Part shown: positions 31,323 through 32,456 of the stretch, piece after piece
Layout of the letters: each line of letters starts with the position of its first letter
How positions within the stretch are numbered: position 1 is the stretch's first letter
Assembly: GCF_002157505.1 (NCBI RefSeq)
Contig: NZ_NFSC01000031.1
Span: 434,001-498,000, forward strand
DNA length: 64,000 nucleotides
Source: Arthrobacter agilis
GTDB taxonomy: Bacteria > Actinomycetota > Actinomycetes > Actinomycetales > Micrococcaceae
Reading direction: 5' to 3'
Notes under the pieces: generated by a model
Told to the model about the DNA's origin: nothing
Databases searched by the model: none
What the model saw: the letters and a program-made list of their open reading frames with translations, nothing else
Translations under genes and position numbers: made by a program

Positions 31323-31583
31323 TCAGTGGTCGACGGTCCTGAGATGGCTGATGCGGTCGAGGATGCTCGTCTTCAGGGTCGACGGCGCGACCTCGGTGCA
31401 GGACCGTTTCACGACCGACCGGATCACGCACTCGAGGTCGTGTTCCTCGGCGCACTCCGGGCAGCCCTCCAGGTGGTCCTTGATCTCCACGAGGTCCTGG
31501 TGGGACAGCGCGCCGTCCAGGTACTCGTACAGCCGTTCAATCCTCGAGTCGGCGCAATCGCCCATGCTCTCGCAATCGCTCAT
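31323..31583 (-). CDS. rsrA: zinc-binding anti-sigma factor RsrA
   Basis: 86-residue ZAS-type anti-sigma factor. The zinc/redox motif HLEGCPEC (His-x3-Cys-x2-Cys) sits mid-protein and two further cysteines lie near the N-terminus (positions 4 and 10), as in Streptomyces RsrA. In that family disulfide formation under thiol oxidation releases zinc and frees the sigma factor. Its start overlaps the sigR stop by 4 nt, which guarantees coupled synthesis. Confidence 0.93.
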   Translation of the reverse strand: MSDCESMGDCADSRIERLYEYLDGALSHQDLVEIKDHLEGCPECAEEHDLECVIRSVVKRSCTEVAPSTLKTSILDRISHLRTVDH

Positions 31584-32275
31584 TTCTCCATCTCCTGTTC
31601 CTTGCCCGCTGCACCCGTCGCGACCCGGGTCCTGGCACCAGCACCTGCGCCGGTACCGAGGCCCCGCTCGTGCGCGTACTCGGAGAGGAGTTCGCGCAGC
31701 AGTTTGCGGCCGCGATGCAGCCGGGACATGACGGTCCCGATGGGCGTGTTCATGATTTCCGATATTTCCTTGTACGCGAAGCCTTCGACGTCCGAGAAGT
31801 AGACCGCGAGCCGGAATTCCTCCGGAATGGCCTGCAGGGCACTCTTGACGTCGGAATCCGGCAGGTGGTCCAGCGCCTCGGCCTCGGCGGAGCGCAGGCC
31901 GGTGGACGTGTGTTCGGCGGCCTTGGCCAACTGCCAGTCCTCGATGGTGTCCGAGTGCGACTGCAGGGGCTCACGCTGCCGTTTGCGGTACAGGTTGATG
32001 TAGGTGTTCGTGAGGATGCGGTACAGCCACGCCTTCAGGTTGGTACCCGGCTTGTACTGGTGGAAGGCCGAGAACGCCTTGGTGTAGGCCTCCTGCACCA
32101 GGTCCTCCGCATCACTGGGATTGCGGGCCATCCGCATGGCGGCCGAGTAGAGCTGGTCGACGTACTGCATGGCGTCGCGCTCGAAGCGTGCCTTGCGGTC
32201 GGCTTCCGACTCCGTCGACACGTCCAACTGGTCGTCTTCGGCCTGGCTGCTACCTGCGGGGGCTGTTGTATTCAT
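31580..32275 (-). CDS. sigR: ECF RNA polymerase sigma factor SigR (SigH orthologue)
   Basis: 231-residue group-4 sigma factor. Region 2 (about 30-105; AAMRMARNPSDAEDLVQEAYTKAF, then NLKAWLYRILTNTYINLYRK) and region 4 (about 145-205; IPEEFRLAVYFSDVEGFAYKEI) are intact, and the C-terminus is a Gly/Ala-rich tail. It directs thiol-stress genes in actinobacteria and is held by RsrA. I annotate the ATG at 32275. In-frame GTG at 32395 and ATG at 32389 would add 38-40 residues, comparable in arrangement to the unstable sigma-R-prime isoform of Streptomyces. A SigR-type promoter lies upstream of those longer starts. Confidence 0.93.
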   Translation of the reverse strand: MNTTAPAGSSQAEDDQLDVSTESEADRKARFERDAMQYVDQLYSAAMRMARNPSDAEDLVQEAYTKAFSAFHQYKPGTNLKAWLYRILTNTYINLYRKRQREPLQSHSDTIEDWQLAKAAEHTSTGLRSAEAEALDHLPDSDVKSALQAIPEEFRLAVYFSDVEGFAYKEISEIMNTPIGTVMSRLHRGRKLLRELLSEYAHERGLGTGAGAGARTRVATGAAGKEQEMEK

Positions 32276-32430
32276 CGTCCCAAAGTCTACGCGTCCCCGG
32301 GGTCGCGCGGCCGGGGAAGCGTCCCGCTGGACCGACGTCGAGAGCTGGAAATCCGGTCTTTCGACCGTGGCCGTCCGTACACCCGTCATGCGCACCCATC
32401 TCCCGTTCCGGTTTCCCCCACGCCTTCTCC

Positions 32431-32456
32431 AACCCGCCCGTGGGCGCCCTTATTCC
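32431..32456 (-). promoter_or_regulatory. SigR-dependent promoter of sigR-rsrA
   Basis: Reading the minus strand: GGAAT (32456-32452), exactly 18 nt, then GTT (32433-32431). This is the published SigR/SigH consensus GGAAT-N18/19-GTT. Transcription would begin near 32424, just before the upstream in-frame starts at 32395 and 32389, giving positive autoregulation. Confidence 0.75.

Follow-up and report, generated by a model that had tools for sequence, protein, structure and literature searches.

Two tandem promoters, each predicted to serve its own SigR isoform, at the sigR-rsrA operon of Arthrobacter agilis and its relatives

We consider it likely that the sigR-rsrA operon of Arthrobacter agilis is governed by two tandem promoters, each dedicated to its own isoform of the sigma factor SigR, and that the longer isoform, SigR′, amplifies the stress response and is probably transient. 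The locus lies within a stretch of 64,000 nucleotides, which we call the window. A preliminary description of this DNA had proposed a SigR loop of the Streptomyces kind, and its SigR-type promoter (p2), its in-frame, putatively translated extension and its wide conservation all find support in the comparisons below. That account missed the second, downstream promoter (p1), a new element that would separate the two isoforms. The features of the locus, in window coordinates, are the following.

31323..31583, minus strand: rsrA, encoding the anti-SigR factor (TIGR03988, 84.2 bits, cut-off 62.5; HLEGCPEC present)
31580..32275, minus strand: sigR, short form, 231 aa (TIGR02947, 373.9 bits, cut-off 251.55)
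32276, minus strand: predicted p1 transcription start with a 1-nt leader, judged from the pyrimidine-purine pair at -2/-1 that all 81 loci share
32284..32289, minus strand: p1 -10 hexamer TAGACT, exactly 8 nt 5′ of the short sigR ATG and overlapping the VD(F) codons
32276..32389, minus strand: predicted N-terminal extension of SigR′, 38 codons, MTGVRTATVERPDFQLSTSVQRDASPAARPRGRVDFGT, judged from dN/dS and from clade-wide retention of its frame, start and motif
32399..32404, minus strand: Shine-Dalgarno-like GGGAGA of the long form, duplex energy -9.6 kcal/mol for ATG 32389
32421, minus strand: predicted start of the p2 transcript, judged from the pyrimidine-purine step that 45 of 81 loci have at GTT+9 and from in-frame start codons at that distance in other families
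32431..32456, minus strand: p2, predicted SigR-type autoregulatory promoter, with GGAAT at 32456-32452, N18, and GTT at 32433-32431

Both products belong to the SigR-RsrA pair, each scoring above the cut-off of its profile, and the HLEGCPEC of RsrA is an HxxxCxxC sequence, which we take to be the zinc anti-sigma motif. Reading the strand directly places the standard sigR start at ATG 32275, as had been claimed, and shows the sigR stop and the rsrA ATG overlapping as ATGA at 31583-31580. Convergent with rsrA lies a gene for the ribosomal protein bL37 (31132-31206, plus strand, 24 aa; NF047428, 50.2 bits, cut-off 30).

In the mechanism that we propose, p1, a promoter of the housekeeping type with the -10 hexamer TAGACT, would start transcription at ATG 32275 or one base before it, and the (near-)leaderless mRNA would yield a 231-aa SigR restrained by RsrA. 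Thiol stress would free SigR from RsrA, and SigR would then transcribe from p2. The p2 mRNA, with a normal leader and ribosome site, would be translated from ATG 32389 into a 269-aa SigR′ that amplifies the response. Its probably unstructured front piece, together with a conserved N-terminal motif, would most likely mark SigR′ for proteolysis and so keep the pool transient.

The exact GGAAT-N18-GTT that had been reported on the minus strand at 32456-32431, 5′ of sigR-rsrA, is confirmed by reading the strand, and neither strand of the 64-kb window contains another GGAA(T/C)-N18-GTT. Genome-wide, GGAAT-N18-GTT has 54 matches in 3.88 Mb (both strands), so that about 0.002 would be expected per 250 nt of one strand. 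Spacings N15 to N21 together give 253 genomic matches, and the 54 at N18, set against a mean of about 33 over the other six, indicate an excess of some 20 N18 sites. For comparison we used 81 loci, namely the window plus the best 80 of 413 relatives from a protein search of GTDB genomes, nearly all of the 80 labelled Arthrobacter or Pseudarthrobacter. In the region from 450 to 50 nt upstream, all 81 carry GGAAT-N18-GTT, other spacings from N12 to N25 occur in 0-4 loci each and the opposite strand has none (0/81); the loci are related and these counts are not independent, but the length and sequence of their leaders vary greatly. The comparison therefore supports a SigR-type promoter 5′ of sigR, the match being one to the sequence consensus. 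Its transcript had been predicted to begin near 32424, just before the in-frame starts; the G at 32421 (GTT+9) fits better, and a pyrimidine-purine step lies 9 nt after GTT in 45 of the 81 loci, the commonest position among distances 3-12. We note separately an 11-bp tandem repeat, TTCCTCCTGCC on the plus strand, at 32453-32514 (5.6 copies, 88% match), which extends into the p2 -35 element.

The genes behind other SigR-type sites fit a working SigR consensus in this genome. Within 320 nt behind GGAAT-N18-GTT sites lie 44 open reading frames, from which 17 familiar-looking ones were picked by hand for family search; 13 gave a family and four (L124, L030, L027 and L009) gave none. Above the NCBIfam cut-offs were the thioredoxin reductase TrxB, mycoredoxin, MshA, the inositol-phosphate synthase of the mycothiol path (ino1) and NusG, along with an RpoD-type sigma factor, a CE1759-family FMN reductase and an LLM monooxygenase. 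ClpB also lies behind a strict site, represented by its first 313 residues only and scoring below the whole-protein cut-off. Such a set, chosen by hand as it was, is what one would expect of a SigR regulon. Two of the sites (L026, L131) lie 5′ of the RpoD-type sigma gene and nusG, and thiol stress may feed into the core transcription machinery. At L010, the TrxB frame behind the SigR-type site stays open for about 45 codons ahead of the domain, counted from the start of the longest ORF, which is probably not the real one; the VTTQTDVQLD that it reads there bears a faint likeness to the front piece of SigR′.

The evidence for p1 is a hexamer found in all 81 loci, TAGACT in 77 and TACACT in 4, whose distance from the short sigR ATG is always exactly 8 nt. 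The ATG is fixed by protein alignment in 46 of them, and all 46 have the hexamer at a spacing of 8 and at none of the other distances between 2 and 15. For the remaining 35, the alignment begins 30 to 183 nt downstream and the short ATG was found through the p1 signature; one of these loci matches at any other spacing. Because the signature located the ATG in these 35 loci and in the order-wide sample described below, only the spacing controls guard against circularity. No clear -35 element was found for p1. The short ATG is almost without a Shine-Dalgarno (SD) sequence (5 of 81 at -6 kcal/mol or better), and it is preceded in all 81 loci by a pyrimidine at -2 and a purine at -1. A pyrimidine-purine pair is the usual step at a transcription start point, and we infer that the p1 mRNA probably begins R-AUG. 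Among TAGACT-ATG pairs genome-wide, the spacing peaks at 6-7 nt (22 of 37) and is 8 nt in 3 of 37. Leaderless-type spacings are common in the genome and that of sigR is slightly longer; the rarity of 8 nt makes a 1-nt leader likelier than none. Promoter p1 sits inside the extension, TAGACT being read within the VDF codons when the p2 mRNA is translated.

A -10 hexamer 8 nt before the ATG predicts a (near-)leaderless mRNA, so that p1 would make SigR and p2 SigR′. As the internal ATG is almost without SD, the p2 mRNA should give mainly the long form, and as the short ATG would be served by the 5′ end of an mRNA rather than by SD, each promoter would choose its isoform. The signature of a separate, SigR-independent promoter for the short isoform is thus present in the form of the predicted p1.

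Wide conservation of the loop had been suggested, and the signatures of both promoters indeed recur well past the Micrococcaceae, across 17 families of the order. Of 198 genomes in the order, 180 match TIGR02947, and 110 of their loci were sampled (the 30 best-scoring and 80 chosen over the families); the sample includes the window's own family, here f1, and several loci close to the 81. TAnnnT-N8-ATG stands in frame within 330 nt upstream in 106 of the 110, and any other distance between 2 and 15 fits 0-1 loci. For p2, the strict N18 form occurs in 78 of the 110; the relaxed form occurs in 103, compared with 8 of 110 when its spacing is shifted. The arrangement can be lost: p1 is missing in four loci (L166, L167 and L168, all from a single small-genome genus of f1, and L220 from f20) and p2 in seven (three of f20 and one each of f1, f8, f11 and f17). 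The small-genome genus, g3 (2.0-2.5 Mb), lacks p1 in all three loci, and L167 is also without p2.

In several families the p2 start point itself appears to coincide with a start codon. An in-frame ATG or GTG lies exactly at GTT+9 in 36 of the 101 order loci with both promoters (47 at 8-10 nt), compared with 2 start codons at GTT+9 outside the open frame. Among loci with both promoters, all 43 of f3, f8, f9, f13, f14 and f18 have an in-frame start 8-10 nt after GTT, as does 1 of 12 in f1. An SD start of -6 or better is present in 13 of the 44 loci that these six families contribute; in families with a leadered p2, loci with SD starts number 12/15 in f1, 10/10 in f6, 7/7 in f7, 6/6 in f15, 10/11 in f17 and 8/8 in f19. 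From its position, the SigR promoter of f3, f8, f9, f13, f14 and f18 would appear to give SigR′ a leaderless mRNA. Examples of such apparent leaderless SigR-dependent mRNAs are L148, L174, L203, L210, L221 and L187.

Beyond the order, 52 of 119 genomes in a phylum sample gave a match, and the leaders of 26 resulting loci were read. Two loci of f21 combine AGGAGGTGGGTC with a strict p2 and with an ATG upstream in the sigR frame; TAnnnT-N8-ATG is missing from both. That signature is also absent from four f22 loci, 2 of the 4 having a relaxed p2 and one reading TATCLLERP in the upstream frame. In more distant families the signatures are mostly absent, TAnnnT-N8-ATG occurring in 2 of 20 loci.

What the front piece of SigR′ might do is suggested by its sequence. 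A weak TAVLERP-like motif recurs near the N-terminus of the extensions of several families. Its Gibbs score was 267 for 62 sequences (5 restarts), compared with 205 ± 3.8 and a maximum of 216 in 20 shuffles (3 restarts). A matrix built from 11 cores picked by eye in f6 and f19 was then scored on the N-terminal 15 residues elsewhere, kinship being handled by a 50% identity filter alone: composition shuffles did as well in 2 of 2000 cases for f1 (30 sequences), 7 of 2000 for f5, f7, f10, f15 and f17 (19 sequences) and 0 of 2000 for the leaderless-p2 set (42 sequences). The SD-start sets omit eight doubtful starts (L081, L082, L084, L104, L108, L109, L110 and L139). Many members score low, and the likeness may reflect common descent. 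Structure prediction of SigR′ gave a mean pLDDT of 50.7, with about 32 in the extension; the extension probably lacks a fixed structure, although a model so poor overall gives a hint of disorder at most.

The instability of SigR′ is argued by homology. In Streptomyces, SigR′ has a half-life of about 10 min and is a substrate of Clp proteases of the SigR regulon, according to the available parts of PMC4921905 and PMC5472188, and the Arthrobacter form is probably short-lived as well. A rise of the proteases under SigR, as in Streptomyces, is not evident from the sequence here. No strict SigR site stands before clpP1P2, clpX or clpC in the genome, although a loose match to the consensus, GGGAC-N19-GTT, ends 72 nt 5′ of the ATG of clpP1, and clpB has a strict site. 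The lack of a strict consensus at the Clp genes would suit a different role for the front piece, in which both isoforms are made and the extension alters binding to RsrA or polymerase, or the choice of partners, rather than stability; the recurring motif could then be a docking site. We think this rather unlikely, though it deserves serious weight: the Streptomyces homologue is unstable and degraded by regulon proteases (PMC4921905, PMC5472188, as far as their available text goes), the extension is predicted to be unstructured in the model just described, and the match before clpP1, loose as it is, is SigR-like.

Proteolysis of SigR′ remains our preferred reading, and we offer an extended version of it tentatively, as a possibility that we would not yet favour. 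The transcription start point may hard-wire the isoform across the order, p1 beginning R-AUG and p2 having AUG or GUG at its own start in several families, while an ancient TAVLERP-like tag, shared from Arthrobacter to other families and perhaps the class, would act as the degradation signal. This would amount to a degron coded by the transcription start, and, if true, the ribosome could not confuse the two isoforms.

These proposals presuppose that the extension is translated. Two in-frame starts had been named, GTG 32395 and ATG 32389; both are present, but only ATG 32389 is conserved, and the GTG was rejected as the start of the long form on account of its unconserved position. ATG 32389 adds 38 residues in frame with sigR, giving the 269-aa SigR′. 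In the window's 15-member clade, the start is ATG at -114 in 13, GTG at -114 in 1 and ATG at -111 in 1. Across clades start positions vary (-90 to -126 in most), and codons too, each with its own in-frame SD. Frame-breaking stops in close relatives had been named as something that would refute the extension, and 26 of the 81 loci carry one, in frame, somewhere from the predicted start of p2 transcription to the ATG of sigR; an in-frame start follows it in 25 of the 26, the sole exception being L038, where bases are masked and no usable start is seen.

It is improbable, in our judgement, that the upstream frame is a mere 5′ leader of a truly autoregulatory p2, with both promoters giving the same short SigR. 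High-GC leaders are often open by chance, and from the predicted start point frame 0 is stop-free in 51 of 77 loci and frame +2 in 40 of 77, frame +1 always being hit by the TAG of the -10 hexamer (77/77). The open frame by itself was accordingly rejected as evidence; because frame +2 is nearly as often open, it counts as weak. Initiation signals, in contrast, are concentrated in frame. Over the 81 loci the best in-frame start has a mean SD energy of -10.1 kcal/mol, against -4.2 and -3.1 in the other frames; the mean is -2.6 at the short sigR ATG and the leader average -5.1. ATG starts with SD of -8 or better number 34 of 65 in frame versus 4 of 36 and 2 of 19 in the other two frames, and all start codons reaching -8 number 107 of 293 versus 16 of 130 and 10 of 82. 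These counts took starts in every frame regardless of a later stop, and since frame 0 is richer in starts, the proportions weigh more than the minima. The short ATG, being without SD, would be poorly translated from a p2 mRNA, and the 36 in-frame starts at the p2 start point of other families, against 2 outside the frame, also speak against a simple leader.

Selection points the same way. Over 26 disjoint nearest pairs, substitutions at codon positions 1/2/3 number 80/74/157 (p = 3e-10), and dN/dS of the extension is about 0.38. It is 0.25 in the N-terminal half and 0.51 in the C-terminal half, the latter a weak constraint that would be in keeping with a leader. The set comprised 52 of the 81 loci, from clades with assigned starts; identical pairs and those more than 35% different were dropped, and the last 24 nt of the extension, which hold p1, were left out. 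In the same pairs SigR itself shows 61/11/862, the extension being far less constrained. Within the window's clade the peptide positions T6 ... R11 and F14-Q-L-S-T18 are nearly fixed (13 or 14 of 14 members, L040 being left out for its different length), and the start holds at exactly -114 in 14 of 15 although the p2 site ranges from -171 to -192, which a mere leader would not explain. The SD, frame and selection tests together indicate an in-frame upstream start that gives an extended isoform, and the extension is very probably translated.

The converse, that only the long form exists, ATG 32275 being mis-called and TAGACT reflecting protein constraint on VDF/VDL rather than a promoter, is very improbable, for although RVDF (extension residues 33-36, whose DNA holds TAGACT) is invariant in 14 of 14 clade members, TAnnnT-N8-ATG is kept across families while the peptide changes (VDF, VDL, LGS, GLGW, VGS, LWT), the spacing is 8 in 106 of 110 order loci, and the pyrimidine-purine pair at -2/-1, present in all 81 loci, is not something that protein constraint demands.

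The two-isoform loop is already known in Streptomyces. Reportedly, the title of the 2009 paper by Kim et al. speaks of actinomycetes, and a paper by Kim from 2012 is said to be the one on conservation. In Streptomyces coelicolor, SigR and SigR′ arise from sigRp1 and sigRp2 (Kim et al. 2009, as cited in the available parts of PMC5472188 and PMC4921905). From what these texts present, the predicted Arthrobacter system shares with it the SigR-RsrA operon, an autoregulatory upstream promoter, a second promoter for the short form, and an in-frame upstream ATG that yields an N-terminal extension, of 55 or 58 aa in Streptomyces (PMC5472188, PMC4921905). The short form of Streptomyces, as far as PMC5472188 is available, has an extensive ribosome-binding site and a GTC start, a layout shown by the two f21 loci with AGGAGGTGGGTC; the Arthrobacter short form, by contrast, has an ATG almost without SD, 8 nt after a -10 hexamer, at a (near-)leaderless p1. 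An AT-rich stretch upstream of Streptomyces sigRp1 is bound by WblC (PMC4921905, in part); by AT content over -50..-38, no such WblC/WhiB7 box was found at p1 (23% in the window, 27% over the 81 loci). As predicted from its sequence, the Arthrobacter system works like Streptomyces SigR/SigR′ but is wired differently.

Other actinobacterial sigma genes offer partial parallels. According to the accessible portions of PMC10027907 and PMC4921905, Mycobacterium tuberculosis sigE and sigH have promoter arrays, with several promoters per ECF sigma gene; the promoters yield isoforms with different N-termini, and one sigE promoter is leaderless. The shorter forms there come from a SigH-dependent promoter within sigE, whereas here an upstream stress promoter would give a longer one (PMC10027907, PMC4921905, in part). 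The sigH-rshA operon of Corynebacterium glutamicum is an orthologous sigma/anti-sigma operon for which autoregulation is mentioned; transcription of sigH was mapped to starts 22, 89 and 93 nt before its start codon, which leave a leader and have -10 hexamers of the SigA type, and the part of PMC3489674 available describes no long isoform. Among the literature matches listed, none concerned a SigR′ form in Arthrobacter or a leaderless sigR; on that footing the variant with a (near-)leaderless p1 appears new.

If this reading is correct, the feedback design of Streptomyces would extend to a large bacterial order with different molecular wiring, in which a stress promoter need only begin transcription ahead of a leaderless gene to attach a tag to its protein. 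The p1 and p2 signatures would let both isoforms be predicted from genome sequence. In addition, the recurring N-terminal motif would make the recognition of SigR′ for degradation directly testable in harmless soil bacteria.
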